Made by a program: the position numbers and the translations under genes. Shown here piece by piece: positions 17,235 to 30,174 of a stretch of DNA of 64,000 nt (the first letter of the stretch is position 1; each line of letters begins with the position of its first letter). The stretch is from NCBI RefSeq assembly GCF_028867965.1, contig NZ_JAPQNT010000003.1:1-64000 (forward strand), in the 5' to 3' direction. This DNA is from Flavobacterium sp. SUN046 (GTDB taxonomy: Bacteria; Bacteroidota; Bacteroidia; Flavobacteriales; Flavobacteriaceae). The notes under the pieces were generated by a model. That model ran no database searches. It saw only the letters and a list, made by a program, of their open reading frames with translations, and was not told where the DNA came from.

Positions 17235-18788
17235 ATGTCAACAATTGCTCAACAATTCGGTATGACCGAAGCATTAGAAATATTAGGTGTAAAAGCCATT
17301 AATGAAGGAACTTCAACTGGAAATAATCATTTTTCTAACGGAGAAATTATCGAAAGTTATTCGCCAGTAGACGGTCAGCTTATCGGAAAAGTAAAAACTA
17401 CTACCGCAGCTGATTATGAAAAAGTAATGCAAACTGCAACTGCTGCTTTCCTGACTTTTAGAGCAATGCCAGCTCCACAACGTGGTGAAATTGTTCGTCA
17501 GTTTGGAAATAAATTAAGAGAATTAAAAGAACCATTAGGAAAATTGGTTTCCTACGAAATGGGAAAATCATTACAAGAAGGTTACGGTGAAGTTCAAGAA
17601 ATGATTGACATTTGCGATTTTGCAGTTGGACTTTCACGTCAGTTAAACGGACAAACAATTCCGTCTGAGCGTCCAGGTCACGTAATGCGTGAACAATGGC
17701 ATTCTATTGGAGTTGTCGGAATTATTTCTGCGTTCAACTTTCCAGTAGCGGTTTGGGCTTGGAATACCGCTTTAGCATGGATTTGTGGTGATGTATGTGT
17801 ATGGAAAGCTTCAGAAAAAGCACCATTATGTTCTATCGCTTGTCAAAATATTATTGCTGGAGTTTTAAAAGAAAATAATTTACCAGAAGGTATTTCTTGT
17901 ATCATCAACGGCGATTACAAAGTAGGTGAAATGATGACTACTGACGCACGAATTCCTTTAATTTCTGCAACAGGTTCTACTAGAATGGGAAGAATTGTTG
18001 GTGCAACAGTAGCGCAACGTTTCGGAAAATCATTATTAGAATTAGGAGGAAACAACGCAATCATAATTACACCAACTGCCGATTTAAAAGTGGTTGTTCC
18101 TGGTGCTGTTTTTGGTGCTGTTGGAACTGCAGGACAACGTTGTACTTCAACCAGACGTTTAATTATTCACGAATCGGTTTATGATAAAGTAAGAGACGCT
18201 ATTGTTGGTGCTTATGGTCAATTAACTATTGGAAATCCGTTAGATCAAAAAAACCATATCGGTCCATTAATTGATACCGATGCTGTTAAAACCTATTTAG
18301 CCGCTATTGTAAAAGCAAAAGCCGAAGGCGGAAAAGTATTAGTAGACGGTGGTGTTCTTTCTGGTGAAGGATACGAATCAGGTTGTTATGTAAAACCAGC
18401 CATTATTGAAGCCGAAAATCATTTTGAAATTGTGCAACATGAAACTTTTGCACCAGTTTTATATTTAATGAAATATTCTGGTGAAGTTGAAAATGCTATC
18501 GAATTACAAAATGGCGTTGTGCAAGGTTTATCATCGGCAATTATGACAAATGAACTGAAAGAAGCTGAAAAATTCTTATCATTTGCAGGTTCCGATTGTG
18601 GAATTGCAAACGTAAATATCGGAACTTCTGGTGCTGAAATTGGTGGTGCTTTTGGTGGTGAAAAAGAAACTGGTGGCGGAAGAGAATCAGGTTCAGATGC
18701 TTGGAAAGTATACATGAGAAGACAAACCAATACAGTTAATTATTCGGACCAATTGCCTTTAGCTCAAGGAATTAAATTTGACTTGTAA
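17235..18788 (+). CDS. amaB: ALDH7-type aldehyde dehydrogenase (L-aminoadipate-semialdehyde dehydrogenase-like)
   Basis: A 517-residue NAD-dependent aldehyde dehydrogenase. The active site is complete: N168 in SAFNFP, general base E269 in LLELGGNNA and nucleophile C303 in GTAGQRCTSTRR. The sequence style (WHSIGVVGIISAFNFPVAVW, KSLLELGGNNAIII, and the GGEKETGGGRESGSDAWK ending) is that of the antiquitin/ALDH7 group. That group oxidises alpha-aminoadipate semialdehyde/piperideine-6-carboxylate in lysine catabolism. It has its own promoter and a bidirectional terminator, so it is probably monocistronic. The exact substrate is family inference. Confidence 0.88.
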   Translation: MSTIAQQFGMTEALEILGVKAINEGTSTGNNHFSNGEIIESYSPVDGQLIGKVKTTTAADYEKVMQTATAAFLTFRAMPAPQRGEIVRQFGNKLRELKEPLGKLVSYEMGKSLQEGYGEVQEMIDICDFAVGLSRQLNGQTIPSERPGHVMREQWHSIGVVGIISAFNFPVAVWAWNTALAWICGDVCVWKASEKAPLCSIACQNIIAGVLKENNLPEGISCIINGDYKVGEMMTTDARIPLISATGSTRMGRIVGATVAQRFGKSLLELGGNNAIIITPTADLKVVVPGAVFGAVGTAGQRCTSTRRLIIHESVYDKVRDAIVGAYGQLTIGNPLDQKNHIGPLIDTDAVKTYLAAIVKAKAEGGKVLVDGGVLSGEGYESGCYVKPAIIEAENHFEIVQHETFAPVLYLMKYSGEVENAIELQNGVVQGLSSAIMTNELKEAEKFLSFAGSDCGIANVNIGTSGAEIGGAFGGEKETGGGRESGSDAWKVYMRRQTNTVNYSDQLPLAQGIKFDL

Positions 18789-18835
18789 TTTTTATTGAAC
18801 CATATAAGGAATTTAAGTTCATTTAAGACATAATT

Positions 18836-18869
18836 AAAAAGGCGTTCAGAATTTTCTGAACGCCTTTTT
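18836..18869. terminator. Bidirectional terminator between converging genes
   Basis: Perfect 14-bp stem AAAAAGGCGTTCAG / CTGAACGCCTTTTT with a 6-base loop, flanked by A and T runs. It serves the plus-strand ALDH gene and the minus-strand PhnA-like gene. The same GGCGTTCA stem is reused at 46325. Confidence 0.88.
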
Positions 18870-18924
18870 CTGTAAAATAAAAAGCTTATATTTTCTTAAA
18901 TGACTTAAATGGTTTTCTTAAATC

Positions 18925-19500
18925 CTACTTAGTCTTCTTAACATATTGCGTTAAAATAAAAATACTTTGGTTTTCAACGCGTCCTTCAATAAGGTTAGCA
19001 TCATCCCAAACTAATTTTATATTGTGAACAGCAGCACCACGTTTTGCAGTGAAAGTTGCACCTTTTACATCTAAATCTTTCACTAAAACAACCGAATCAC
19101 CATCTTTTAAGATATTTCCGTTGCTGTCTTTGTGAGTTATTTTGCCTTCGTCATCATCGGCTTCTCCAGTGGCTTTTGCCCATTCTAAAGCATCTTCATC
19201 AAGATACATCATGTCTAACATATCATTGTTTTTCAATCGAGCATGCATTCGCCAAGAAACAATTTGAACCGGAAGATTTTCATTCCACATGCTATCGCTT
19301 AAACCACGCCAATCGTTGGCAGATGTAGTTTCAGGATTTTCTATTTGATCTTTTAATGATTTGGTAATTAAGATACAATTTTCTGGAATATTTTCTGTTT
19401 TTGGTTCAACCAAATAAACAACTAAATCTTCTTCACTTCCAGAAATTTCACATTTAGAATTGCTTCTATCTTTTAATCTTTTTTCGGTAACAACGCTCAT
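18925..19500 (-). CDS. PhnA domain-containing protein
   Basis: A 191-residue cytoplasmic protein. The C-terminal ~70 residues (KDSNGNILKDGDSVVLVKDLDVKGATFTAKRGAAVHNIKLV) are a PhnA (YjdM-like) SH3-type domain. The N-terminal part (KDRSNSKCEISGSEEDLVVYLVEP) keeps one Cys of the zinc-ribbon seen in longer homologues. Despite the name, members are not established phosphonate enzymes; function is unknown. The gene starts 9 nt after the upstream small beta-barrel gene on the same strand, so the two are cotranscribed. Confidence 0.85.
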   Translation of the reverse strand: MSVVTEKRLKDRSNSKCEISGSEEDLVVYLVEPKTENIPENCILITKSLKDQIENPETTSANDWRGLSDSMWNENLPVQIVSWRMHARLKNNDMLDMMYLDEDALEWAKATGEADDDEGKITHKDSNGNILKDGDSVVLVKDLDVKGATFTAKRGAAVHNIKLVWDDANLIEGRVENQSIFILTQYVKKTK

Positions 19501-19509
19501 TTTTATATT

Positions 19510-20001
19510 TTATAAATTGAACGAAGCTCCAAATTGAAAAACAAACTGATTATTAAAGCGCTCATATCCAACAGAATCTGGATTGTATTTGGCTAGAGGA
19601 ATTCCAGCCTCTGAATAAATTCCAAAACCGTTAGTGAAGAAATATCTAGCACCTATATGCGCACCAAAATTTCTTGTTCCTAAATCTAAACCAGGATATA
19701 AGTCAAACTTGTCGCTAATGTTTAAAACATTTCCCAAATTAGCATTGAATCTAGCTTTTGCATCAGCTCTATCTCCAAATTTTGGTGTTCCAGCAGCTGT
19801 TGTAGTATTTAATAAATAACCAACTGTAAATCCGTAAGATAAATTTTCGCCAAAACCAAAATCGGCACCACTAACAATTCCAGTTCCATATTCTTGAAAC
19901 GTTGCTCCAACTTGAAATTTAATATCGCCTTTTCCTTTAAAAGCTTGCGCATTTGCAAAACTTGCAGTTAAAACAAGTATAAGTATTGTAATTTTTTTCA
20001 T
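19510..20001 (-). CDS. Small outer-membrane beta-barrel protein (DUF6646-like)
   Basis: A 163-residue exported protein with signal peptide MKKITILILVLTASFANA. Alternating hydrophobic/polar strands and a terminal aromatic-containing strand (FVFQFGASFNL) indicate an 8-strand-type barrel. The sequence (FKGKGDIKFQVGATFQEYGTG) resembles a conserved flavobacterial family of unknown function. Its -7 element CAAATATA (minus TATATTTG) lies 20 nt upstream, and the PhnA-domain gene follows in the same unit. Confidence 0.8.
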   Translation of the reverse strand: MKKITILILVLTASFANAQAFKGKGDIKFQVGATFQEYGTGIVSGADFGFGENLSYGFTVGYLLNTTTAAGTPKFGDRADAKARFNANLGNVLNISDKFDLYPGLDLGTRNFGAHIGARYFFTNGFGIYSEAGIPLAKYNPDSVGYERFNNQFVFQFGASFNL

Positions 20002-20020
20002 TTTATCTAATTTTAATGTA

Positions 20021-20028
20021 CAAATATA
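20021..20028 (-). promoter_or_regulatory. -7 element of the small beta-barrel / PhnA operon
   Basis: The minus strand reads TATATTTG, 20 nt before the start codon, matching TAnnTTTG. No good -33 match is seen. Confidence 0.5.
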
Positions 20029-20040
20029 ATGGTTTATAGT

Positions 20041-20778
20041 CTAATTTCTTCCTTTTTCATCAAAGTACAAATTGTGTAATGGTTCGCTTTGCCAGAATTC
20101 CTTAGTAGCGACGTCTAAAATTGTTAACGGACCTTTGAAAGCCGCACCAGTATCAATATTCCAAACACAAGCTTTTTGAATCGGAATCATTTTTTCAATA
20201 TGAGTTACAGGCGTGTGACCAATGTAAATTTCTTTATATAATTTAAATCGTTTTGGATAAAAACGGCTTGATGGTTTTATGTTTTCATCTAGTGCTAATG
20301 CGGTTTCCCAAAGCGTTCTATCCCAATAAAATAATTTCGGAAAATATTCATAGGCAACACCATTCATATTGGTAAATCCAGCATGAATAAAAAGGCGGTT
20401 TTGATCGTCTAAGTAATAATTTTGTAATGATTTTAAAAAAGCAATGTGAGTATTTTTCTTTTCTTCTAAAACTTTGGCATAAGCAGTAATTGTTGCTTCT
20501 CCACCATGCTTGAACCACATTAATTCATCAAAATTCTTAGTATTTCCAGTTAGCCAGTCTAGCAGCAATTCATCGTGATTGCCGCGAATAAAAACGCAAG
20601 TTTGTTTTGTGCTCAGTGCAATAAGATAATCAATTACTTCGGGCGATTGGCTCCAACCATCAACATAATCACCAAGAAATATTAAAGTATCGTCTGTAGT
20701 TACGTTGGCGCGTTCCATTATTTGGTGTAATGCACGCAAACCACCGTGAATGTCGCCTATTACTAATGTTCTATTCAT
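20041..20778 (-). CDS. Metallophosphoesterase (serine/threonine phosphatase-like)
   Basis: A 245-residue calcineurin-like phosphoesterase. Metal and catalytic motifs are intact: GDIHG (D9, H11), GDYVDG (D37) and GNHDE (N67, H68), with later His residues in FIHAGF and YIGHTPVTH. This arrangement matches PrpA/PrpB and ApaH-type enzymes; protein phosphatase or dinucleoside polyphosphatase activity is possible. I chose the ATG at 20778, preceded closely by a -7 element, rather than an in-frame extension to 20823 whose 15 extra residues are not family-like. Confidence 0.88.
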   Translation of the reverse strand: MNRTLVIGDIHGGLRALHQIMERANVTTDDTLIFLGDYVDGWSQSPEVIDYLIALSTKQTCVFIRGNHDELLLDWLTGNTKNFDELMWFKHGGEATITAYAKVLEEKKNTHIAFLKSLQNYYLDDQNRLFIHAGFTNMNGVAYEYFPKLFYWDRTLWETALALDENIKPSSRFYPKRFKLYKEIYIGHTPVTHIEKMIPIQKACVWNIDTGAAFKGPLTILDVATKEFWQSEPLHNLYFDEKGRN

Positions 20779-20799
20779 TTTATATAAAAAATTCAATTG

Positions 20800-20807
20800 C
20801 AAAAGTA
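20800..20807 (-). promoter_or_regulatory. -7 element of the metallophosphoesterase gene
   Basis: The minus strand reads TACTTTTG (TAnnTTTG), 22 nt before the chosen ATG, and supports that start. Confidence 0.5.
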
Positions 20808-20816
20808 ATGCAAATT

Positions 20817-20872
20817 TTAACATTTTTTACACTTTTAACGTAAAGCCACTTCTTTCAATCAAGGTAGGTTTG
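20817..20872 (+). promoter_or_regulatory. Island promoter 1: 28-bp box plus -7 element, before lipoprotein-HK-RR operon
   Basis: The box at 20817-20844 reads TTAACATTTTTTAC, then ACTTTTAAC, then GTAAA. Exactly 20 bp later comes the -7 element TAGGTTTG (20865-20872). Three further promoters in the next 7 kb have the same sequence and spacing. Position relative to the -7 suggests the box replaces or overlaps a -33 element, as expected for activator-dependent promoters. Placement before the kinase/regulator operon suggests autoregulation. Confidence 0.8.
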
Positions 20873-20985
20873 TGATGTAATAGTACTAACACAAAGAATT
20901 TTATAAAAAATAAACCAAAAATCGTAACACATTATTATTAATGTGATTGCACACTAAATCATTGTCTTATTTAAAACTAATATTT

Positions 20986-21264
20986 ATGAAAACAACTCTT
21001 AACTTTCACTCATTTTTAGCACTAAAAGCATTTAATAAAACACATGTTTTATTTTTAGTAGCCATTGTAACAACTTCACTTTTAGTTTCTTGTACGGCAG
21101 ACGAAATAGAAGTACAGCCAAAAAATACCATTAAAAAAGAGCTTAACCTTCAACGAACAGATACTATTTTTAATGCTCCAAATACGACGAATACTACTAA
21201 CACTACTACAAATAGTGGAGAGATAAATCCAATAAAGACTCCACCACCACCATCAAATCCTTAA
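20986..21264 (+). CDS. Small Pro/Thr-rich lipoprotein, first gene of the HK-RR operon
   Basis: A 92-residue predicted lipoprotein with an unusually long N-region, a hydrophobic stretch (VLFLVAIVTTSLLVSC) and lipobox Cys36 followed by TADEIE. The mature part is low-complexity Asn/Thr and ends in PPPPSNP. No enzymatic motif is visible. The ATG at 20986 is preferred over a TTG at 20947. It lies 19 nt before the histidine kinase gene and shares island promoter 1. A role as a signal, sensor accessory or target of the kinase is possible from context alone. Confidence 0.72.
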   Translation: MKTTLNFHSFLALKAFNKTHVLFLVAIVTTSLLVSCTADEIEVQPKNTIKKELNLQRTDTIFNAPNTTNTTNTTTNSGEINPIKTPPPPSNP

Positions 21265-21283
21265 TCCTAATTTTTTCGTAGAT

Positions 21284-23326
21284 TTGAAAAAAATAAATAT
21301 TTTGAAGAACTTAATAATTTTACTATTCGTTAGTGTTTTCTTTTTTAGTTGTAAAAAAGAAAACACTAACGATTTTAATACTAAAAACAATATAGATATT
21401 TTATTAACTAAAGCTAGCCAATCTTTAAATCCAGACTCTAAATTAAATATTGCAAATAAAGCTTCTAAGGAATTAGAGAATTATGGTTTAGATTCCATTT
21501 CTAGAAAACAAAATATTGAACTTGCAAGGATATATTACTCGTTAGATAATAAAAAATACGTTAATATTTGTAAACGGTTACTAGGTAATCAAAATAATCA
21601 AAATAATGATGAAATTTCATTTTGTAATTTTTTATTAGGGAATTTTTACTATAATCAAGCAAAATATGATGAATCGTATACATATTACTCTAATGCCGAA
21701 AAAGCTTTTTTAAAGAAAAACAATTTAGATTACGTTTCATTTTCATTAGCTTTCAAAGCTAATATTCTAATTTATAAAAAAGATTTTGTTGGAGCAGAAG
21801 TATTGGCGATAAAAGCAATCAAAATAGCTATTCAAAAAAAAAACAATGAATTAATTTATAATTGCTACTTGACATTAGGTAATTCGTCTCTAGGCTTATC
21901 AAATTTTAATAAAGCCATTGAATATTTTAATAAAGCTATATCCACATGTCAAAATTTAGAGACAAGTTCCAATTATTTAGCTTTTTCAATTCAACCATTA
22001 AATTATATTTCTATTGTTTACCAAAAACAAGAAAAATATAATAAATCTATTCATTATGCAGAAAAGGCTTTAAATTTTGCAGGAATTAAAAACAAGGAAA
22101 TTCTAATATATGCTTATCTAACAAATAATGTTGCTTACTCTAAATTCAAATTAGGTGATAAATCATCAATAAAACAATTTCAAGAAACTTTAAAAATTGG
22201 AGATAGTATTCAAAGTATTCCAATTCAAATCACTTCCAAAACCTATTTAGGTGAATACTATTTAGCCCAAAAAGATACTGTTAAATCTAATTTTTATTTA
22301 AAATCAGCCCAAAATCAAGCGCATAAAAACAATATTTTTGAAGATGAGTTAAAAATTTTGCAACTTTTAGCACAAGCCAATCCTAACGATAAGTCATTTT
22401 ATTCAAATAGATATATTACTCTAAATGATAGTCTTCAAAATGTTGAACGAGCTACTCGTGATAAATTTGCTCGAATAGAATTTGAAACCGACGAAATCAC
22501 CAATCAAAACCAGTTAGTCTCTAAAGAAAATGATTCACTATACAAAGGTATTTGGATAGTTTTAGGATTTGGTATTTTGAGTTTGATGGTTATTATGTTG
22601 TGGTATACCAATAAATTACAAAATGCCAAAAATAGAGAATTGCTATTAAAACAAGAACAACAAAAAGCCAACGAAGAAATTTATCAATTAATCTTAGACC
22701 AACAACAACAAATTGAAGAAGGAAAGAATATTGAAAAGCAACGAATTTCGTTAGAACTTCATGATGGTGTTATGGGAAAATTATCGGCAGTGCGGTTAAA
22801 TTTATATGCTGCATTATACAAAGCTAATTTGATAGAAGACGAATTATTTGCAAAACAAATAGACGAAATCCAAACCGTAGAACAAGAAATTAGAACCATT
22901 GCACACGACTTAAATTCTAATTTATTTTCAGACAATGCTAACTTTATTGGAATTGTTAAAGAACTTTTTACCAAAATTGAAAGCCATTCTTCAATACAAT
23001 TTACGCTTCAAGTAAGCGATGCTGTAAATTGGGATCTGGTCAATAATGTTGTCAAAATTAATTTATATCGAATAGTACAAGAAGCACTTCAAAATATTGA
23101 AAAGTATGCCCAAGCTAGCAATGTTTTTGTAGTTATGACCAAAATTGAAAGTAATGAATTGCAAATAGAAATTTCTGATGACGGAAAAGGATTTGATACT
23201 ACTCTAAAAAAGGACGGAATTGGACTTAATAACATGAAAAAAAGAGTAGCCGAACTAAACGGAAAAATCAGCATTAAATCAACCTTAAAAAAAGGAACAA
23301 AAATAAATTTGATTATTCCATATTAG
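21284..23326 (+). CDS. TPR-containing sensor histidine kinase (HisKA_3 type)
   Basis: A 680-residue kinase with a TTG start. The N-terminus looks like a lipoprotein/anchor signal (LLFVSVFFFSCKKE), followed by ~380 residues of TPR repeats (~40-400) as the extracytoplasmic sensor and one membrane helix (~422-445). A cytoplasmic coiled coil leads to the HisKA_3 phosphoacceptor H493 in RISLELHDGVMGKLSAVRLNL. The ATPase domain carries the N-box (YRIVQEALQNIEKYA), G1 (SDDGKGFD) and G2 (DGIGLNNMKKRV). It is the partner of the response regulator 37 nt downstream. Such TPR kinases commonly sense envelope or peptide cues in Bacteroidota; the cue here is unknown. Confidence 0.93.
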   Translation: MKKINILKNLIILLFVSVFFFSCKKENTNDFNTKNNIDILLTKASQSLNPDSKLNIANKASKELENYGLDSISRKQNIELARIYYSLDNKKYVNICKRLLGNQNNQNNDEISFCNFLLGNFYYNQAKYDESYTYYSNAEKAFLKKNNLDYVSFSLAFKANILIYKKDFVGAEVLAIKAIKIAIQKKNNELIYNCYLTLGNSSLGLSNFNKAIEYFNKAISTCQNLETSSNYLAFSIQPLNYISIVYQKQEKYNKSIHYAEKALNFAGIKNKEILIYAYLTNNVAYSKFKLGDKSSIKQFQETLKIGDSIQSIPIQITSKTYLGEYYLAQKDTVKSNFYLKSAQNQAHKNNIFEDELKILQLLAQANPNDKSFYSNRYITLNDSLQNVERATRDKFARIEFETDEITNQNQLVSKENDSLYKGIWIVLGFGILSLMVIMLWYTNKLQNAKNRELLLKQEQQKANEEIYQLILDQQQQIEEGKNIEKQRISLELHDGVMGKLSAVRLNLYAALYKANLIEDELFAKQIDEIQTVEQEIRTIAHDLNSNLFSDNANFIGIVKELFTKIESHSSIQFTLQVSDAVNWDLVNNVVKINLYRIVQEALQNIEKYAQASNVFVVMTKIESNELQIEISDDGKGFDTTLKKDGIGLNNMKKRVAELNGKISIKSTLKKGTKINLIIPY

Positions 23327-23362
23327 TTTATTACTTTCACGTAAGATATAACTTGTTATTTT

Positions 23363-24025
23363 ATGGTGATAAGAATTTTAATGATTGACGATCATTCAAG
23401 TATGATTGAAGGCTACAAAGCAATGTTGACACTAAACAAAGCGCAGCATATAATTGAAACTGAAGAAGCCTATAGTTGTGAAGAAGCCTATACTATTATT
23501 ATTGATCCTCAAAAAAGCACTACTTTTGACCTTGTTTTTTTAGATTACTCTATACTAGGATTTCCAGAACAAAAAATATACAACGGTGAAGACTTAGGTG
23601 TTTTAATTAGAAAACACATGCCAAATACCAAAATCATAATGCTAACTTCACATTTTGATGCCATTAGATTATACAATGTTGTAAAAAAAATCCAACCCAA
23701 CGGATTATTAGTAAAAAGTGATTACAAACCACCTCATTTATTGGACGCTTTTGAAAAAGTATTAGCAGGCGAAACTTATTTTACTCCAGTAGCAATTGAA
23801 AAAACTAAAGAACCATTGTTTACCAAAGGTTTATTAGATAGTGTTGATAGAGAAATAATAACATTATTGGCTGAAGGATTTGTAATAAAAACGATTGCCA
23901 ATAAAATGAATGTTTCTGAAGATACTATCAAAAAAAGAAAAAGTAAAATAAAAGATTTACTTGGCATAGAGAAAGGTGGCGATGAAGACATTCTTAAAGA
24001 GTGTAGAGCATTAGGATTACTTTAG
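23363..24025 (+). CDS. LuxR/NarL-type response regulator
   Basis: A 220-residue regulator. The receiver domain has the acidic pair D9/D10 (LMIDDHSSM), phosphoacceptor D61 (LVFLDYSILG), T95 (IMLTSHFDA) and K118 (GLLVKSDY). The C-terminal ~65 residues form a LuxR-type helix-turn-helix (REIITLLAEGFVIKTIANKMNVSEDTIKKRKSKI). The final KGGDEDILKECRALGLL tail resembles BldC/NarL-like flavobacterial regulators. It is cotranscribed with the TPR kinase. The TTTAC-N9-GTAA box found four times nearby has the dyad symmetry expected for a dimeric LuxR-type regulator, so this protein is the natural candidate to bind it. Confidence 0.93.
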   Translation: MVIRILMIDDHSSMIEGYKAMLTLNKAQHIIETEEAYSCEEAYTIIIDPQKSTTFDLVFLDYSILGFPEQKIYNGEDLGVLIRKHMPNTKIIMLTSHFDAIRLYNVVKKIQPNGLLVKSDYKPPHLLDAFEKVLAGETYFTPVAIEKTKEPLFTKGLLDSVDREIITLLAEGFVIKTIANKMNVSEDTIKKRKSKIKDLLGIEKGGDEDILKECRALGLL

Positions 24026-24047
24026 TTCTATTTAAATAAATAAAGTT

Positions 24048-24103
24048 TTAACGTTTTTTACACTTTTAGTGTAATACCATATTTTAAGGTTATAGTAGTT
24101 TTG
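24048..24103 (+). promoter_or_regulatory. Island promoter 2, before the 178-aa secreted protein
   Basis: The box at 24048-24075 reads TTAACGTTTTTTAC, then ACTTTTAGT, then GTAAT, with inner inverted repeat TTACAC / GTGTAA. The -7 element TAGTTTTG (24096-24103) begins 20 bp after the box, the same geometry as the other three copies. Confidence 0.82.
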
Positions 24104-24135
24104 ACATAACAAATTACTCGAGAATTATTTGTCAA
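24104..24135 (+). promoter_or_regulatory. Conserved CTCGAG leader element, copy 1
   Basis: Just after the -7 element lies CAAATTACTCGAGAAT (24110-24125), identical in the leader of promoter 4. CTCGAG starts 13 nt after the -7 in both. The flanks ACAAAT / ATTTGT and TTTGACA / TGTCAAA are inverted, so the transcript 5' end could fold, or a second dimeric protein could bind. Confidence 0.65.
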
Positions 24136-24192
24136 ACTAATATCAAAAATCTAGAAAGGTTCTAGATTTAAAACTTTAAAATTTTATTTATT

Positions 24193-24729
24193 ATGAAAAA
24201 ATTATTATTTGGCTTAATTGCCACAGTTATGTTTGGTTTTGTTGGGAATGCTCAAAAAACTACTAAAGAAGATGTAAGATACAGTTTATCTGAAGGAATG
24301 GCTTCTATTGTTCAAGCTTTAAAACCTGCTTATAAAAGCGGTATTACTTTTGAAACATTTGAAAAAACAGTCACAGGAAATAGTAGAAATACTGAACAAG
24401 GAAGAAAATTACTTGTTAAAGTATTTGAATATGAAGCCCAAGGAACTTCAAGAGATCAAATTTTAAAAGAGTATTCAGGTTCAGAAATGGCAGAAGCGTG
24501 TCTTTTTGTAAACGATGTTTATAAAAACAATCCTAAATCAGATGGTAGAGAGTTATTTGGTGGTACTACTGGAGATTTTAATCCTTATCCAGCTACAATT
24601 CAAGGGAAAGGAGCGCCTTGTAGATGGTGGCAATTAGGATGTTGGTTAAATCAAATTTTCGGTGAATCTGGAGGTAATGCTATTATTTCTGCAATAGTAG
24701 ATTTTGTAATTGGTCTTATCATACCTTAA
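24193..24729 (+). CDS. Secreted 178-aa protein with hydrophobic C-terminus, unknown function
   Basis: The signal peptide MKKLLFGLIATVMFGFVGNA is cleaved before Q21. The mature part is a helical, charged region (~22-120), then a Gly/Pro-rich linker (FGGTTGDFNPYPATIQGKG) and a C-terminal segment with C143 and C150 flanking WWQLG. The chain ends in an uncharged-to-hydrophobic helix (GGNAIISAIVDFVIGLIIP). I recognise no family. The tail could insert in membranes or pack in a complex; a bacteriocin-like or toxin-like role is only a possibility. It is driven by island promoter 2 and followed by a terminator. The signal peptide nearly matches that of the gene at 27757. Confidence 0.8.
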   Translation: MKKLLFGLIATVMFGFVGNAQKTTKEDVRYSLSEGMASIVQALKPAYKSGITFETFEKTVTGNSRNTEQGRKLLVKVFEYEAQGTSRDQILKEYSGSEMAEACLFVNDVYKNNPKSDGRELFGGTTGDFNPYPATIQGKGAPCRWWQLGCWLNQIFGESGGNAIISAIVDFVIGLIIP

Positions 24730-24743
24730 GTTTATTTTTAATT

Positions 24744-24777
24744 AAAACCATCAAATAAATTATATTTGATGGTTTTT
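24744..24777 (+). terminator. Terminator between the secreted protein and the TraB-like lipoprotein
   Basis: Perfect 14-bp stem AAAACCATCAAATA / TATTTGATGGTTTT with a 5-base loop and T-rich 3' side, 14 nt after the stop codon. The next gene starts only 13 nt later, so it must depend on read-through unless a promoter is hidden inside. Confidence 0.75.
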
Positions 24778-24789
24778 AAATTATTCTTT

Positions 24790-25512
24790 ATGAAAAATTT
24801 TATCTACATTATTATTTGTTTTTTTGTTTTAATTTCTTGTACATCAACAAAGGTAAATCTAGCTTTAAAGGTAATTGGTGCTTACAATGACAAAATAAAG
24901 TTGGAAAAAATGTCTAAATCAAATAAAGAAGTAGTATTCTTTCCGATGATACATATTGGTACAGAACCTTTCTATGAAGATGTAAAAAACAAAATAGATT
25001 CTTTAGAGAACTTGGGTTTTATAACCTATTATGAAAAGGTTAATTCTAGCCCAACTGACACCTTAGATTTAATGAAATTAAGAAAACTGCTTGGTTTTCC
25101 GGTTCCTAAAAGAGGTAAAGGATACATGAGCGTTTTCGATTCATTATATAAATTCAAGCTTAAGAAAAAATTAATAAGCCAGCCCTCTAATAAAAACTTG
25201 GGCGTAGATTCTTTGAAAGGAAGAAATGTAGATTTAACTTTAAAACAAGTTATTACTGAATATGAAAGAAGATTTGGTGAACTTAAGTTAAACGATTGTG
25301 ATTTTCAAACATTTTATGATCAGAAATCAATTTGTAATGATAAACCAATTTCTAAAGAATCAAGAAATGAGATAATTTTAGATTTTAGAAATAAAAATGT
25401 TGTAAATGAGATAATATCAGATCAACATCAAAAGATTATTATTGTTTATGGAAAGCAACATTTTATTGGTATAAAAAAAGAATTACAAGATTTAGGATTT
25501 ACGGTTAAGTAA
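24790..25512 (+). CDS. TraB/Tiki-like (TIKI/PrgY superfamily) lipoprotein
   Basis: A 240-residue lipoprotein starting at the ATG at 24790 (signal peptide to lipobox LISC, then TSTK). The segment EVVFFPMIHIGTEPFYEDVKN followed by GFITYYEKV matches the first conserved block of the TraB/Tiki/EreA-ChaN superfamily (xxxGTxHxG-like, then a Glu). Near the C-terminus IIIVYGKQHFIGIKKELQDLGF matches the second block (hvYGxxHxxGhxxxL). Tiki members are metalloproteases and TraB/PrgY members interfere with peptide pheromones. If the assignment holds, it could act on a peptide at the cell envelope, which would fit its place in the island. Remote homology only. Confidence 0.65.
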   Translation: MKNFIYIIICFFVLISCTSTKVNLALKVIGAYNDKIKLEKMSKSNKEVVFFPMIHIGTEPFYEDVKNKIDSLENLGFITYYEKVNSSPTDTLDLMKLRKLLGFPVPKRGKGYMSVFDSLYKFKLKKKLISQPSNKNLGVDSLKGRNVDLTLKQVITEYERRFGELKLNDCDFQTFYDQKSICNDKPISKESRNEIILDFRNKNVVNEIISDQHQKIIIVYGKQHFIGIKKELQDLGFTVK

Positions 25513-25646
25513 TTTTTGATAATGTTGTGTGATTTTAAAATTAAAAATTGTGAAAAGATAATTTTAATACTGCCATTGTTTTTGGGAATTAATATTATAT
25601 GATTTACAAAAATGAAACAAAGTAAAACCCTCACTTAATTCAAAAT

Positions 25647-25679
25647 AAAAAAACGACAGCCAACAACTGTCGTTTTTTT
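25647..25679 (+). terminator. Terminator after the TraB-like lipoprotein gene
   Basis: Stem AAAAAAACGACAG / CTGTCGTTTTTTT with a 7-base loop and T run, about 135 nt after the stop codon. Confidence 0.85.
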
Positions 25680-25697
25680 ATGCTATAAAATTAAATA

Positions 25698-25753
25698 TTA
25701 ACATTTTTTACACTTTTAGTGTAAAATCAGCCATAATCTTCAAAGTAATTTTA
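25698..25753 (+). promoter_or_regulatory. Island promoter 3, before the secreted pair 25789/26374
   Basis: The box at 25698-25725 reads TTAACATTTTTTAC, then ACTTTTAGT, then GTAAA; with its flanks it forms a perfect 8+5+8 palindrome TTTTACAC / GTGTAAAA. The -7-like TAATTTTA (25746-25753) begins 20 bp after the box and deviates from consensus only at the last base. The CTCGAG leader element is absent here. Confidence 0.8.
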
Positions 25754-25788
25754 CAACATTAAATCAACAGTAATTAATTATAAAAATC

Positions 25789-26241
25789 ATGATAAAAACA
25801 GCAATATCAATAGCCACATTTCTAATTTCATTAGTTGCTTCATCACAAAATTTTGGTAAAGAAGCTCAAGGTGAATTTAATGGAAAAATTTGCGACATCG
25901 GAAGAGGACTTTGTACGATAACACCACCCAACACGAATAATAAATCTACAACAATGAAAAATTACACTACCTACAAACAATCTGAAAATACAATGATAAT
26001 TGAACTTGACACTAATAATTTATCAGTTGAAGATCAAAAAAAGTTTTTTGGAAAAGAATATTCTAAAATAACTAGCAATGAAGAATTAACCTTTGTTCAG
26101 GATGCAGATTACGTTTTTTCTGTAGATATGCTTCTTTATTTAGGATTTGATTTATCCTATAAAAATCTAAAAAAAGGCACTTATCCTTTAGCAATAATCA
26201 AAGACAAAGTGCTTATAACACTCACTCTTTCTAAAGATTAA
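25789..26241 (+). CDS. Secreted 150-aa protein, unknown function
   Basis: The signal peptide (MIKTAISIATFLISLVASSQ) precedes a mature domain with one Cys pair (C35 and C42 in KICDIGRGLCTI), a Thr/Asn-rich linker (~45-60) and a mixed alpha/beta C-terminal part. That part contains DTNNLSVEDQKKFFGKEYSKI and a terminal strand LITLTLSKD. No family is recognised. It is the first gene after island promoter 3 and precedes the helical protein gene by 36 nt to its earliest ATG, so the two probably act together. Confidence 0.78.
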   Translation: MIKTAISIATFLISLVASSQNFGKEAQGEFNGKICDIGRGLCTITPPNTNNKSTTMKNYTTYKQSENTMIIELDTNNLSVEDQKKFFGKEYSKITSNEELTFVQDADYVFSVDMLLYLGFDLSYKNLKKGTYPLAIIKDKVLITLTLSKD

Positions 26242-26373
26242 TGAAAAAAAATTAGTAAAACTTAAACAATTAAGATTATGAAATCACCATTAACAACAAG
26301 TTTGCTTACGCCAACAACAAGTAGTAGAATGGCGATACCATATATGGCTGTTAAAAAATTAAATTTTACATAT

Positions 26374-27510
26374 ATGAAAAATCTTAAATATCTATTTTTT
26401 CTTTTATTTCTCTTTGCAAATAATGTAACGTTCGCAACTAACGAAGGTGACAATCCAAATGAAGTTGTTGCAAAACTAATTGAGGAAATTAAAGCTGTTA
26501 CTGCAAAATATGACTTGCTTCTTGATGTAAAACAATGCGAGTTAGAACGAATAAATAAAGCACTTTTAATTGCTTACAGTACAGAACAAAAAGTTGATTT
26601 ATTAGTAGAAAAAGATAAACTAAAGAGCGAAATTCTAGAATTAAAAGCCGAAGGAACTGGAGAAATTTCTAAAATAAGATACCTAAAAGGACTTCAAATT
26701 ATTAAGATTTTGTACGAGAAAATATTGAGTTTAGACCATCATTTTGCATCAGTAAGAACGCTTAATGAAATTAATAAAATTTCAAATCCCAATCAATATC
26801 CAGAGTATGAAAAACTTAAAGATTTAGTTGCTTCCAAAAAGGATAAAAAATCAGGTTTCGATTTGACTTCTGTTCTAGGAACTAATACAATTGTATCTGT
26901 CGTTCAAACATTTACAAACATGTTAGGTTCGTCATTAACTAAGGACGAAAAAGAGAAAGAACTCGCTAATGTAGATTGTATTCTTGATTTTACGTTACGA
27001 ATGCAAAATGATTTGAATACCATTTATTTTGAAACTGCATTTTTACAAAAAAGCAACGATAAAATGAAATTAGATATTGAGTTATTGTTCAAAGATTACA
27101 CCAAACCCATAGGATATGTTGCCACTTTAGAAAACTGTAGAACCAATGATGATTGGGAAACAGTAACTCAAAAAATGGAAGAATATCTTGCCAAATTAAA
27201 AACTACAACAGGAACTTCACAATATAAAATGCAAGTAAATTTAGAGTTTCCAATTGATAGATTATTGCAATTTATCACGCAATACAACAACTTTATAGAC
27301 CAAGGCGGAAAGTTTTATGAAAAGTTTAAAATCATACTCAACAGCTATGAAAATGAAAAACAATGCGAAACCAAATTACCAATGGAATATAAAAAACTAA
27401 AAGCAGATATTGATGTTGCAATTGATAAATTCAACATTGCCTACAAACCAGTTGAGGTAAACGGCACAAAAATGAAAGAGATACTTTACGGATTAAATGA
27501 ATTTGATTAA
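26374..27510 (+). CDS. Exported long-helical protein, unknown function
   Basis: I chose the ATG at 26374 because it gives a standard signal peptide (LKYLFFLLFLFANNVTFA); an earlier in-frame ATG at 26278 would add 32 residues without signal character. The 378-residue protein is nearly all helical and rich in Lys/Glu heptad-like segments. It has a short hydrophobic central part (SVLGTNTIVSVVQTFTNMLGSSL) between the two long helical halves and four Cys residues in the second half and N-region. Long helices around a hydrophobic hairpin occur in alpha-helical pore-forming proteins, but simple coiled-coil envelope proteins look alike. I assign no function. Confidence 0.75.
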   Translation: MKNLKYLFFLLFLFANNVTFATNEGDNPNEVVAKLIEEIKAVTAKYDLLLDVKQCELERINKALLIAYSTEQKVDLLVEKDKLKSEILELKAEGTGEISKIRYLKGLQIIKILYEKILSLDHHFASVRTLNEINKISNPNQYPEYEKLKDLVASKKDKKSGFDLTSVLGTNTIVSVVQTFTNMLGSSLTKDEKEKELANVDCILDFTLRMQNDLNTIYFETAFLQKSNDKMKLDIELLFKDYTKPIGYVATLENCRTNDDWETVTQKMEEYLAKLKTTTGTSQYKMQVNLEFPIDRLLQFITQYNNFIDQGGKFYEKFKIILNSYENEKQCETKLPMEYKKLKADIDVAIDKFNIAYKPVEVNGTKMKEILYGLNEFD

Positions 27511-27631
27511 AGATAGTTATTAAGTTAAAAATTGGGTTAATTTTTTTTAAAACAATAGCAGAAATGAAGTAGTTTTTTTATACTGAATTTATTTTATCAT
27601 CTGAATCGTTTCATCATCTAAAGCAAAAAAA

Positions 27632-27687
27632 TTAACATTATTTACGTTTTTTCCGTAAAACCATCATAACCATAAAAACTATTTTTG
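27632..27687 (+). promoter_or_regulatory. Island promoter 4, before the Cys-rich secreted protein
   Basis: The box at 27632-27659 reads TTAACATTATTTAC, then GTTTTTTCC, then GTAAA. Its inner dyad TTTACG / CGTAAA has changed symmetrically compared with the other copies. The -7 element TATTTTTG (27680-27687) starts 20 bp after the box, the same geometry again. Confidence 0.82.
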
Positions 27688-27720
27688 AAGTATCAAATTA
27701 CTCGAGAATATTTGAAGTAT
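27688..27720 (+). promoter_or_regulatory. Conserved CTCGAG leader element, copy 2
   Basis: CAAATTACTCGAGAAT at 27694-27709 is identical to copy 1 at 24110, again with CTCGAG 13 nt after the -7. Here it is flanked by the direct repeat TTTGAAGTAT (before and after) and the dyad CAAAT / ATTTG. Confidence 0.65.
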
Positions 27721-27756
27721 AACAAATAAATTATTAATTTTATAAAACTATTAAAA

Positions 27757-28212
27757 ATGAAAAAAATTCTATTCGGCTTAATTGCCACGATATTAATATC
27801 AATAAATTCAAATGCTCAAAAAATTGGTGTAAATCAGGAGGATAAATATATCATTACTGATGATTTAAGTTTTTTGAAGGAGAAGTGGAATCAAATATTA
27901 AAAGATCAAAAAATTAATGATCAAATTAATAATTTTAAAATTGAATCTGGAGAATATGATGATGGCGATAAAAAAATAAAATATTATGCCATTATTGGAA
28001 CTACATTAAATTCGAATCTTCAAATGGCTGAGGTTATAGAGTTAACTCAAAATGGCGAGTTTTATTATAATAAACTTTTAGCTGACTCTGGTCACACGGT
28101 TTCGTGTAGTGGATGTATGGCGGGTTGTTCTCCAAAAAAAATGAAATTTGGTTGGGTGTGTACAGCGGGATGTGAAGCGTGTAGTAAAACGGAGACAGTA
28201 TCTGGCAGATAG
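27757..28212 (+). CDS. Secreted 151-aa protein with mirrored Cys motif, unknown function
   Basis: The signal peptide (MKKILFGLIATILISINSNA) is nearly the same as in the gene at 24193. The mature N-terminal ~90 residues are mixed alpha/beta (FLKEKWNQILKDQKINDQINNFKIESGE). The C-terminus carries six Cys in a mirror-like pattern: CX2CX3C (117, 120, 124), ten residues, then CX3CX2C (135, 139, 142). This could be a metal site or disulfide knot. I do not recognise the family. The next gene at 28508 encodes a diverged paralogue. Island promoter 4 controls it. Confidence 0.8.
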   Translation: MKKILFGLIATILISINSNAQKIGVNQEDKYIITDDLSFLKEKWNQILKDQKINDQINNFKIESGEYDDGDKKIKYYAIIGTTLNSNLQMAEVIELTQNGEFYYNKLLADSGHTVSCSGCMAGCSPKKMKFGWVCTAGCEACSKTETVSGR

Positions 28213-28312
28213 AACTATAATGTTATTTTAAGTAACATTTGTATAAATAGCGTGAGTTATATTTTATTTAAATATTTTGGTGCAAATATCTAGAACTGTC
28301 TCAAATTATTAG

Positions 28313-28343
28313 TATAAATTTAAAAAAAGATTTTAAATTTATA
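28313..28343. repeat. AT-only perfect hairpin in the 28213-28507 gap
   Basis: Perfect 13-bp stem TATAAATTTAAAA / TTTTAAATTTATA with a 5-base loop. It contains no G/C pair and no T run, so it is a weak terminator at best. The rest of this gap is AT-rich with no recognisable promoter box. Confidence 0.4.
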
Positions 28344-28507
28344 AAACTTGTTTACCAAATTTAAATCAATCGTATCAAAGTTTTTTTTTATTTTTAACTC
28401 ATGTTTCTGATACTATTTTTTTAGTAAATCATAAATAGATATTTTAGATAATATCTCCAAAGTGGTTGTTGCTATTTTAATAATTAATTAGTCGTAAAAA
28501 TTTTAAA

Positions 28508-28945
28508 ATGAAGTACTTAACTCTAGTTGTATTATTTTCTTTTTTATCTTGTAATAAATCTTTATACAAGAATCAAATAGGTGTGAAAACCAAAGATAGA
28601 TTTGAAGTTTCAATTGACACAAATAAATTAAAGATAGATTGGAATAATATATTAGCAGAAAATAATATAGAAGGTAAAATATCTGATTTTGTTATTAAAA
28701 GTGGTATTGATGATAAAAACAATAAAAAATACTATTATTTATTCTCTAAATCTAAAGATAATAAAATAAAAATGGTTTCAAAAATCATAAAAAAAGGAAA
28801 TCTTTTTTTTATTGATTCTATTGATCAGAGGTATATAATATGTCATAATTGTAGTGATTCTTATCCAAAAATATATGATAATTTATGGGCTTGTGAAACG
28901 GAAAATTTCTTTGAATGTAAAAAAACTGAGGTAATAAAATTTTAA
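28508..28945 (+). CDS. Lipoprotein paralogue of the 27757 protein, unknown function
   Basis: A 145-residue predicted lipoprotein (lipobox FLSC, Cys15). It aligns along its length with the upstream Cys-rich protein: IGVKTKD, DWNNILAENNIEGKISDFVIKSG, KKYYYL, then CHNC (112, 115) ... WACE (129) ... ECKKTEV (137). It keeps four Cys rather than six and is membrane-anchored rather than free, suggesting a secreted/anchored pair. It lies 295 nt downstream without its own island box, so it may depend on read-through or a separate promoter. Confidence 0.76.
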   Translation: MKYLTLVVLFSFLSCNKSLYKNQIGVKTKDRFEVSIDTNKLKIDWNNILAENNIEGKISDFVIKSGIDDKNNKKYYYLFSKSKDNKIKMVSKIIKKGNLFFIDSIDQRYIICHNCSDSYPKIYDNLWACETENFFECKKTEVIKF

Positions 28946-29028
28946 TACTGATAGTATTTTTTACTTATTTTTTCACGAAATTAATATTTAAATAGGTGCA
29001 AAAATGATTTGTTGTAATGTATTGTTTT

Positions 29029-30174
29029 TTATTTTCCATTATATTTCATTTTCCTCAAAACACGCATTACTTCTTTAAAATTGACATAAACTTCTTTGTT
29101 TTTGTATTGTTTTAAAAGTGGTTTTGCATCAATTAATTTTTGTTTCGCATCAACAAATCCGTTAAGATAACAAATCATAAAAGTAGATGGAACGCTTTGC
29201 AAATCTAATTCTTCACGTTCAGATAATTCTTGTGATTTTTGCAATTTAGTCAGCAAAGATAGTGTAGAATTATAAATATGAAACAATACTTTTCGATTGT
29301 ATTGTGGTGGTTCAAACAACATTTCGGTTTCAATTTTGTAATAGCCATTATCATAAAACGAAATTTTTTGCTGTTCCAAAGGATAATAACTCGTTTTATC
29401 ATTCAATCCTAACGGAACATATTCAGTTATTGTAAAAGTATCTTCGTCAAATTCGATAGAAACATCATCTTGAGCCGAATAAAAAAGTTTAATTTGTTCG
29501 TTAACTAATTCAATATCAACTCTTGAAAAATAAGTTTTATCACGAATTTTTTTTGGAATTCCAGCCCAACAAATCACAAATAACTCCTTGAAAACTTTAT
29601 ATTTAGATGGAATGTCTTTGTGACGATTGTTCACAAAATCAATTACGCCATCAAGTGTATTCGCAATGCTATTTCGGGAACTATTTTCAATGCTGATTAC
29701 TGTTTCAATATTAAGTTTAGAATACGGAATTTTTTCTTCAGTTGGAATAGAATTACTGCCACGACGAACAAAAACAGTATTGGCAAGAATCGTATGAATG
29801 TTTTTTTTGAAACAAGAAGTTTTCGATTTGGGTTTGATCGTTACCAATCCAACTACTTTGTCTTTCGGTAAATTCGGAAAAGGCACATTTTCATATAGAA
29901 TTTTCGGCGGATTTTCCAAATAAGCATTTACTAAATTCTGAATTCGAGAATCGTCAAAAAAATCGTCACCAGTAATCTCATTATCCTGATCTTCAACACC
30001 AACTACAATATAAGAATTGTTAGAAGGATTAGAATTCGATAACGCACAAATGTGTTTCAAAAACTTGGCTTTTCCTTCTTTAGTATGTAAATTTAACTGC
30101 CTTTTTTTATCATAAAAACTACTCTCATCATTGTGAGCAAGAAGGTTTTTGATAAGTAAACGCTTGTTAATCAT
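29029..30174 (-). CDS. AlbA_2/Schlafen-type ATP-binding domain protein
   Basis: A 381-residue cytoplasmic protein. The N-terminal ~140 residues fit the AlbA_2 (Schlafen-like) domain: ESSFYDKKRQLNLHTKEGKAKFLKHICALSNS, then SYIVVGVEDQDNEITG, then VFVRRGSNSIPTE. The rest is a conserved flavobacterial C-terminal region without a known motif. Such proteins are annotated as putative DNA binders or ATPases and some occur in defence or mobile contexts, but this one is a stand-alone gene and no partner is visible. It converges with the two-component island. Confidence 0.78.
   Translation of the reverse strand: MINKRLLIKNLLAHNDESSFYDKKRQLNLHTKEGKAKFLKHICALSNSNPSNNSYIVVGVEDQDNEITGDDFFDDSRIQNLVNAYLENPPKILYENVPFPNLPKDKVVGLVTIKPKSKTSCFKKNIHTILANTVFVRRGSNSIPTEEKIPYSKLNIETVISIENSSRNSIANTLDGVIDFVNNRHKDIPSKYKVFKELFVICWAGIPKKIRDKTYFSRVDIELVNEQIKLFYSAQDDVSIEFDEDTFTITEYVPLGLNDKTSYYPLEQQKISFYDNGYYKIETEMLFEPPQYNRKVLFHIYNSTLSLLTKLQKSQELSEREELDLQSVPSTFMICYLNGFVDAKQKLIDAKPLLKQYKNKEVYVNFKEVMRVLRKMKYNGK

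Follow-up and report, generated by a model that had tools for sequence, protein, structure and literature searches.

A probable two-component regulon with a fixed 56-bp promoter architecture and putative toxin/immunity-like outputs in Flavobacterium sp. SUN046

The window analysed here is a stretch of 64,000 nucleotides from Flavobacterium sp. SUN046 (RefSeq assembly GCF_028867965.1, contig NZ_JAPQNT010000003.1, positions 1 to 64,000), in which a kinase/regulator operon and several genes for exported proteins are preceded by copies of the same 28-bp box. An earlier note on this DNA had proposed that these boxes, each with a promoter element at a fixed distance, mark a compact, autoregulated two-component system. 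Unless stated otherwise all features lie on the plus strand; loci, genomes and proteins are cited by our L, G and P handles. Box 1 (20817..20844) precedes an operon that encodes a small lipoprotein of 92 amino acids (20986..21264; lipobox ..LLVSC-TADEIE.., Pro-rich end), a sensor histidine kinase (21284..23326, start codon uncertain) and a NarL/FixJ-type response regulator of 220 amino acids (23363..24025), whose residue 190, in the helix-turn-helix (HTH) region, is Lys. Box 2 (24048..24075) is located directly 3' of the regulator gene, ahead of the gene for a 178 amino acid protein (24193..24729, hereafter effector 1) and, directly 3' of that, one for a partner lipoprotein of 240 amino acids (24790..25512), an immunity candidate. 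Box 3 (25698..25725) precedes the gene for a secreted protein of 150 amino acids (25789..26241), which has a secreted companion of 378 amino acids (26374..27510, in an open reading frame (ORF) listed from 26278). Box 4 (27632..27659) precedes the gene for a 151 amino acid protein (27757..28212, effector 2), and 295 bp after it lies a lipoprotein-like ORF of 145 codons (28508..28945), a possible partner. The outputs read from the sequence as secreted or lipoprotein-type ORFs.

The kinase scored above the Pfam cut-offs for HATPase_c (48 bits against 26.4), TPR_12 (42.8 against 30.1) and HisKA_3 (24.3 against 24.0), and with both HisKA_3 and HATPase_c it belongs to the HisKA_3 type. A lipoprotein-type N-terminus, a TPR region and a single membrane helix near residue 530 can be read from its sequence. 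The regulator has a receiver domain (Response_reg, 37.4 bits against a cut-off of 30.2); GerE, the LuxR-type HTH, came out slightly under its cut-off (22.4 against 23.5), and this region is covered by full-length NarL-family model matches and by the PDB relatives RcsB, VraR and NarL. Relatives of the regulator were found in a Flavobacteriaceae metagenome-assembled genome (MAG; 85% identity), F. caeni (79%), two Flavobacterium MAGs (74% and 60%) and a Bacteroidetes MAG (46%). The small lipoprotein matches no family above cut-off in Pfam or NCBIfam. A small lipoprotein occupies the corresponding place in 32 of 44 loci that have the kinase directly before the regulator when a relaxed rule is applied (17 of 39 loci by the first-pass rule). 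Nearly all of the printed mature forms start with C[ST]-x-[DE]-[DE], and most end in KP, KK or a KKD-like sequence. It is a candidate co-sensor, sensor accessory or signal.

The box pattern TTAACRTTWTTTACN9GTAAW was scanned against the window allowing up to three mismatches. Four matches were returned, exactly where the earlier note had placed them and each with 0 mismatches; 100 shuffles of the window gave a mean of 1.24 matches with up to three mismatches, and at least four such loose matches in 4 of the 100. In the whole genome (3.37 Mb, 36 contigs) four matches had no mismatch, none had one, two had two and 53 had three. With up to three mismatches the reversed control was commoner (94 + 71 matches) than the box pattern (35 + 24), so the loose genomic matches were considered as chance. 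A strict combined pattern, made of the box core, the fixed spacing and TAnnTTT, had four matches in the genome, all at the window locus, and none for the control. A chance origin of the four boxes was rejected on these exact and strict counts, and the genome-wide scan that the earlier note had proposed revealed no spread to many unrelated promoters in this genome. The idea of a loose promoter motif of the whole family was also rejected: a box with at most one mismatch occurs in 96 of 299 family genomes, and matches to the reversed control are more frequent by eye.

At all four sites the end of the box is separated by 20 bp from a -7-like octamer, namely TAGGTTTG (20865-20872) for box 1, TAGTTTTG (24096-24103) for box 2, TAATTTTA (25746-25753) for box 3 and TATTTTTG (27680-27687) for box 4. 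The claimed invariance of the spacing holds; the length of the gap is constant and its sequence varies among the four sites. When gaps of 18 to 22 bp were permitted in close relatives, all sites with at most one mismatch had a gap of 20; in the wider genus and locus searches the 20-bp gap was set by the search model itself. The octamer had been described as TAnnTTTG, which fits three of the four elements, and the third, TAATTTTA, ends in A. In the available text of PMC6847099 the consensus is given as TTTG for -33 and TAnnTTTG for -7, the -33 motif being much less evident, with the T of TAnnTTTG at -12 and its G at -5. According to the same text G is virtually absent at -10 and -9 of the -7 element, and the elements of boxes 1 and 2 do carry G in this region, which fits a weak, activator-dependent promoter. 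Taking that T as -12 predicts transcription starts near 20877, 24108, 25758 and 27692, and the box then spans -60 to -33 with its dyad centred at -42. Each of the four sites has its putative activator box at the same distance, close to -41, where the -33 element would otherwise lie. A class II activated promoter would be expected to look like this, with a weak -7 element and an activator standing in for the -33 motif.

The earlier note had also stressed that the inner dyad keeps its symmetry where its bases differ. This stands for boxes 2 and 3, which keep 4 of 5 tested pairs, and not for boxes 1 and 4, which keep 2 of 5; box 1 has a hybrid dyad (ACAC/CG), and box 4 is of the ACG/CGT type. A box also occupies the position of box 1 in L091, L119, L120 and others. 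The compensating change seen in the window rests on one base pair in one box, and it is in other genomes that covariation appears. A set of 120 sites from 82 loci was collected, giving 89 different boxes with identical surroundings counted once; 40 of the 82 loci had been picked for a strict box within or close to them, and covariation was tested for those pairs that the search had left free. Pair 15/23 is complementary in 92% of the 89 unique boxes against 50% for shuffled columns, pair 16/22 in 87% against 48% and pair 17/21 in 56% against 32%; for none of the three did any of 2000 shuffles reach the observed value. No such excess was seen at the central pair 18/20 (12% complementary), and covariation was not found for the outer pairs 10/28 and 11/27 of these boxes. 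The main dyad types are ACAC/GTGT, ACGG/CCGT and ACAG/CTGT.

The dyad type follows a single residue of the neighbouring regulator. Residue 190 is placed in the HTH region by the alignment with RcsB, and we take it to lie in the recognition helix. Loci with Glu-190 have G/C at pair 15/23 in 77 of 80 half-sites; loci with Lys, Asp or Asn have it in 5 of 72. By locus majority 16 of 17 Glu loci carry G/C compared with 0 of 17 others, such that residue 190 predicts the neighbouring dyad type in 33 of 34 loci; a locus was counted if it had a single residue type and one box or more (L123, L153, L197, L198 and regulator loci without a box were left out). In genome G523 a Lys and a Glu regulator are encoded side by side and both box types occur in the one locus. 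Codes of recognition between regulator and operator can rarely be read from genomes, and here one helix residue and one dyad pair change together across the genus, which makes the binding specificity of a Bacteroidota regulator directly testable.

Boxes and regulator also occur together. Of 40 regions around regulator homologues (42-79% identity), 22 have a site upstream of the kinase operon and 28 have one immediately behind the regulator gene, counting sites that score at least 15 under a model that imposes the 20-bp spacing. These positions support the earlier description of a compact, autoregulated system. Among 398 genomes of the genus the strict pattern gave 182 matches in 61 genomes, and its reversed control gave 4. 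When the regulator is scored as present at E ≤ 1e-45, 49 genomes have both regulator and box, 54 the regulator only, 12 the box only and 283 neither (odds ratio 21, Fisher p 9e-23), and the search of related genomes suggested in the earlier note has returned co-occurrence of regulator and box. Taken together, the co-occurrence, the paired changes in the dyad and the residue-190 rule indicate that the neighbouring regulator very probably binds the box, and they provide comparative support for the LuxR-type regulator named earlier as candidate. RcsB, VraR and NarL, the sequence relatives with solved structures, belong to a family whose members bind as dimers to inverted half-sites and activate from about -40. 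Similarity to these proteins amounts to only about 24-41 bits, and the site of the window, its extra TTAAC and its Bacteroidota -7 element are particular to the present system.

Strict sites are dispersed in two genomes, with 25 in G717 (L166-L174) and 9 in G520 (L175-L182). Those fetched are mostly of the ACAG/CTGT type and precede unrelated genes, so that boxes of this class may control a broad regulon in some species. Another arrangement is seen in L183 (G548:C1:647000-656000), which contains seven strict tandem copies with a period of 312-314 bp and an eighth, looser copy.

We now turn to the outputs. Effector 1 has the signal peptide MKKLLFGLIATVMFGFVGNAQ and a C-terminus with Cys and Trp residues and a hydrophobic, Gly-containing stretch; its predicted structure is all-helical (predicted local distance difference test score, pLDDT, 78.7). 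The signal peptide of effector 2, which has a Cys-rich C-terminus and no Pfam family, is related to that of effector 1 with 13 of 21 residues identical, a likeness that had been overlooked in the earlier note. A search with effector 1 returned 90 proteins at E ≤ 1, of which 36 (P0055-P0090) have the signal peptide in common and hardly any other sequence; 19 of its 21 positions are invariant or almost invariant among them. In the fetched loci 38 ORFs with this signal peptide were found and one was dropped as too short; the mature parts of the other 37 fall into 20 clusters without detectable relation, and between unrelated clusters the DNA for the signal peptide is up to 94% identical (median 68%). 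Eight genomes (G299, G451, G457, G482, G552, G582, G683 and G684) contain a match to the DNA encoding the signal peptide 0.1-1.2 kb downstream of the regulator gene.

These ORFs mostly come with a partner. Among 36 complete cassettes, the effector ORF is followed within 130 nt by the start of another ORF on the same strand in 29, and the seven without one were excluded from the classification, which used simple regular-expression and hydropathy rules. Seventeen close partners are lipoproteins and six have at least two membrane segments (23 of 29), compared with 10.4% lipoproteins and 13.6% membrane proteins among 492 background ORFs, for which at least 150 residues were required as opposed to 50 for partners. 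The cassettes comprise 17 effector and 16 partner clusters, and partner families change along with effector families. Within the cluster of effector 1 the family of the 24790 lipoprotein follows 6 of 13 paired members, window included, and another lipoprotein family follows the remaining 7; by eye, the C-terminal type of the effector tracks one of these two families. One of the signal-peptide sharers, P0063, is a fulvocin C-related bacteriocin (NCBIfam NF033852, 70.1 bits against a cut-off of 35), and P0085 has a sub-threshold match to a class II bacteriocin. When ten cassette proteins were scanned with Pfam and NCBIfam, one bacteriocin and one choice-of-anchor domain were the only matches above cut-off, and in all 36 aligned sharers the remaining matches had E values of 0.002 or worse.

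A partner make-up of this kind suggests toxin/immunity pairs. Precedent is provided by BcpT of Phocaeicola, a toxin with a lipoprotein immunity protein, BcpI, encoded directly downstream (PMC9308784). The likeness lies in organisation, a secreted antibacterial protein having a small lipoprotein immunity gene downstream; BcpT differs in being a protease-activated, plasmid-borne lipoprotein of 499 amino acids. Because of the cassette organisation, the fulvocin match of P0063 and this precedent, effector 1 and the 24790 lipoprotein are read as a putative toxin/immunity pair. The same reading is less certain for effector 2 and the 28508 ORF, whose gap of 295 bp exceeds the limit for counting as a partner. 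The outputs, to which the earlier note had given an unknown role, may thus be described as toxin/immunity-like. Bacteroidetocins and class II bacteriocins are comparable in being antibacterial peptides of Bacteroidota that are small, exported and equipped with pairs of Cys residues, and in the part of PMC6671954 consulted bacteroidetocins have a double-glycine leader of 15-16 residues, a peptidase-domain ATP-binding cassette (ABC) transporter and no obvious immunity gene. The cassettes described here differ in having Sec-type signal peptides, as read from the N-termini, in place of a double-glycine leader, and mostly a partner gene; no ABC transporter was found among ten scanned ORFs of the window, the rest of which was left unscanned for one. 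Should the outputs prove antibacterial, the combination of box and signal peptide could be used to find a hidden set of polymorphic toxin/immunity pairs in flavobacteria. As a separate observation, three thioredoxin-like ORFs follow the cassette in L095:5116-7842, one identified by Pfam and two read from the sequence, and their products could introduce disulphide bonds into effectors with Cys residues.

The predicted start of the box 2 transcript lies near 24108, and the leader of effector 1 (24104..24192) contains two hairpins. H1 (24109-24132, ACAAAT..ATTTGT) begins at the predicted +2 and H2 (24147-24169) ends 23 nt ahead of the start codon of effector 1. Among 11 leaders the stem of H1 is invariant, while H2 varies in sequence with its pairing kept. 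Jointly the two hairpins keep 97.8% of pair cells compared with 93.9% in shuffles and 21-50% when slid, and both partners of a pair differ in 10 cells, where shuffles give 3.2. Single-sequence folding of five leaders of the box-2 type was only modestly better than that of shuffles (z -3.0 to -1.1). A covariance model made from 12 leaders and run on 78 sources gave 13 strong matches, all of them training sequences and two re-seen in overlapping loci, hence the leader is supported in close relatives and L142 only. A known RNA family was rejected, with no Rfam match within 18500-29500. Box and two-hairpin leader also occur before an ORF of 70-71 codons in F. caeni (L092:9475-13806) and a related MAG (L094:11406-15803), followed by a protein of 392-393 amino acids, an S41 peptidase and an AAA ATPase (the latter two by Pfam in L092). 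The short ORF has a Cys/Thr-rich end in L092, and L092 and L094 appear to hold an operon like those for ribosomally synthesized and post-translationally modified peptides under a like box.

The unit behind box 3 differs from the cassettes in being conserved. The 150 amino acid protein, which has a motif around GRGLC, matches no Pfam or NCBIfam family above cut-off, and its family recurs in related loci. A box precedes its gene in L120 and L142, whose copies were aligned as L093 and L095, and, as judged from N-termini, in L124, L131, L165 and L189. The 378 amino acid companion is 69-80% identical in four relatives and is better conserved than the kinase, which is 46-61% identical in the same genomes. 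Its gene was found in 8 of 120 relatives, all 8 of them regulator-positive, and in 37 of 103 regulator-positive compared with 4 of 57 regulator-negative genomes (p 5e-5). The 57 are a non-random sample, in which 52 have a (mostly weak) match to DNA of the box 2-leader-signal-peptide type and 7 have a strict box; this choice if anything favours the 378-codon gene, and without the five genomes added for such matches the count is 3 of 52. In 20 of 41 positive genomes the gene lies 0.7-6.3 kb from such a match, both being on one contig. The protein may be a candidate maturation, export or immunity/neutralising factor for the effectors.

From these comparisons the regulon is real and local, and very probably under the neighbouring regulator. 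On balance we lean, with modest confidence, towards a dedicated sensor system that controls its own operon together with secreted, toxin-like cassettes; its regulatory part is well supported by comparative evidence, and a toxin function of the outputs is what we infer from gene organisation. The small lipoprotein and the lipoprotein-type TPR kinase would sense something outside the inner membrane, and the kinase, to judge from its domains, would phosphorylate the NarL-type regulator. A regulator dimer would bind the dyad TTTACNC..GNGTAAA with an extra upstream contact at TTAAC, for which comparative support is strong, and would act as class II activator from a box in place of -33 at a weak sigma-A -7 element, thereby inducing the operon that encodes it as well as three output units. 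Transcription of the unit behind the regulator would yield an RNA that opens with the two-hairpin leader, whose structure has support from close relatives. Effector 1 and, with less certainty, effector 2 would be exported by means of the signal peptide and act like a bacteriocin against other bacteria, with the neighbouring lipoprotein as immunity protein, and the 150 and 378 amino acid proteins would form a conserved accessory unit. Beyond the earlier note this adds the code between helix and operator, the polymorphic, toxin-like cassettes, a small lipoprotein as third component and a leader RNA that close relatives share.

A bolder version, which we put forward tentatively and with rather less than even confidence, is that of an undescribed weapon system. 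Here a three-component sensor (small lipoprotein, TPR kinase and NarL-type regulator) would control a slot behind the regulator gene, where one polymorphic toxin/immunity cassette can replace another. The exchangeable end would comprise operator, -7 element, leader RNA and a near-invariant signal peptide, with regulator and operator co-evolving by a one-residue code (Glu or Lys/Asp/Asn at 190). No title or abstract opening describing such a system was found in a literature search that left subscription journals mostly outside its coverage, and the available part of the F. psychrophilum transcription map (PMC9723704) mentions no such motif.

Several results weigh against the main interpretation in one or another of its parts. 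As to the regulator, 9 of the 40 regulator regions have no site at the score used and the strict box is absent from 54 of 103 regulator-positive genomes, of which some carry weaker boxes (L133, L139, L144, L152) and others none. The tree requires five changes of residue 190, and because the Lys regulators form one clade, independent switches are few and the Fisher value for the rule (1.5e-8) overstates the evidence. In the window itself box 4 and half of box 1 carry G/C despite Lys-190 (3 of 8 half-sites), and since box 4 has the dyad of the other regulator class its assignment to the local regulator is less certain. As to the leader, the number of pair types is not above that of shuffles (274/500), pairs changed on both sides barely exceed them (21/500), beyond its training sequences the model gives at best a weak match (L148, E 0.0012), and folding of the transcript from box 4 does not favour H1. 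As to the cassettes, a box lies within 300 nt, the rule used, for only 16 of the 37 signal-peptide ORFs, which lowers our estimate for the slot; among the 21 others some lie closely after a regulator, some have weaker boxes (L139, L152) and some lie elsewhere. Among the 29 effector/partner pairs only 10 have a box. Nor is the signal peptide confined to the regulon, because matches to its DNA also occur in genomes without a close regulator (e.g. G324, G326), and in L125-L130 the box after the regulator precedes a 217 amino acid protein without it. A solved fold for effector 1 was rejected (no PDB match at E ≤ 0.001), a bacteriocin-family match at E ≤ 0.01 was found in only 1 of the 36 signal-peptide sharers, themselves a set picked by signal-peptide similarity, and none of the scanned window proteins matches a bacteriocin family, NF033852 included.

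Part of this evidence could be accommodated by outputs of another nature. The regulon could be real and its outputs envelope, adhesion or stress-induced periplasmic proteins, with the lipoproteins as assembly partners. FimS/FimR of Porphyromonas gingivalis, a sensor kinase and response regulator of Bacteroidota that activate exported proteins, offer a model, as the accessible parts of PMC1974823 and PMC11053733 describe activation of surface fimbriae by this pair; in the former, FimR bound the mfa1 promoter in an electrophoretic mobility shift assay (EMSA) and rFimR did not bind fimA promoter DNA. Most outputs having no bacteriocin-family match, and the 150 and 378 amino acid proteins being conserved and not variable, would suit this as well. 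We nevertheless consider it rather unlikely: the unrelated mature parts (20 clusters among 37) and the changing partner families would be odd for structural subunits, and one sharer of the signal peptide is the fulvocin-type bacteriocin P0063. Moreover, the window kinase is not a FimS (17.4 bits in the curated model against a cut-off of 600), and a 56-bp architecture, a small lipoprotein and variable cassettes are not mentioned for FimS/FimR in the portions of these papers at hand.

That another NarL-type paralogue or a global regulator binds the box, with the neighbouring kinase/regulator pair as just one target, is quite improbable. In its favour, the genome has eight matches to the regulator at E ≤ 1e-3, itself counted, a close regulator is missing from 12 of the 61 genomes with a box, sites are dispersed in G717 and box 4 is of the other dyad class. 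It would leave unexplained why residue 190 of the neighbour predicts the dyad type and why G523 has both regulators with both boxes, and in the window's genome the copies of the box are confined to the neighbourhood of the operon. The repeated unit could also be a by-product of duplication or recombination of cassettes, in which promoter, leader and signal peptide were copied together and no operator was selected; two cassettes of L093/L120 indeed share almost identical upstream DNA, and signal-peptide DNA remains alike across unrelated mature clusters. To this we give hardly any credence, as the gaps at the four sites differ in sequence and not in length, the paired dyad changes and the helix-residue rule point to selection, and the unit also precedes genes without the effector signal peptide.

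Two further genes lie beside the regulon. On the side facing away from its operon, box 1 is followed by a divergent phosphatase-like gene (read from the sequence), and in the minus-strand stretch 20740-20844 a -7-like octamer starts beyond the box 1 dyad at 18 bp in the window and L091, at 17 bp in L093 and not at all in L092; common control of this gene by box 1 is possible. Directly past the regulon a protein with Schlafen/AlbA_2 and DUF5929 domains is encoded on the minus strand (29029-30174), and what reads as an evident homologue adjoins in L093.

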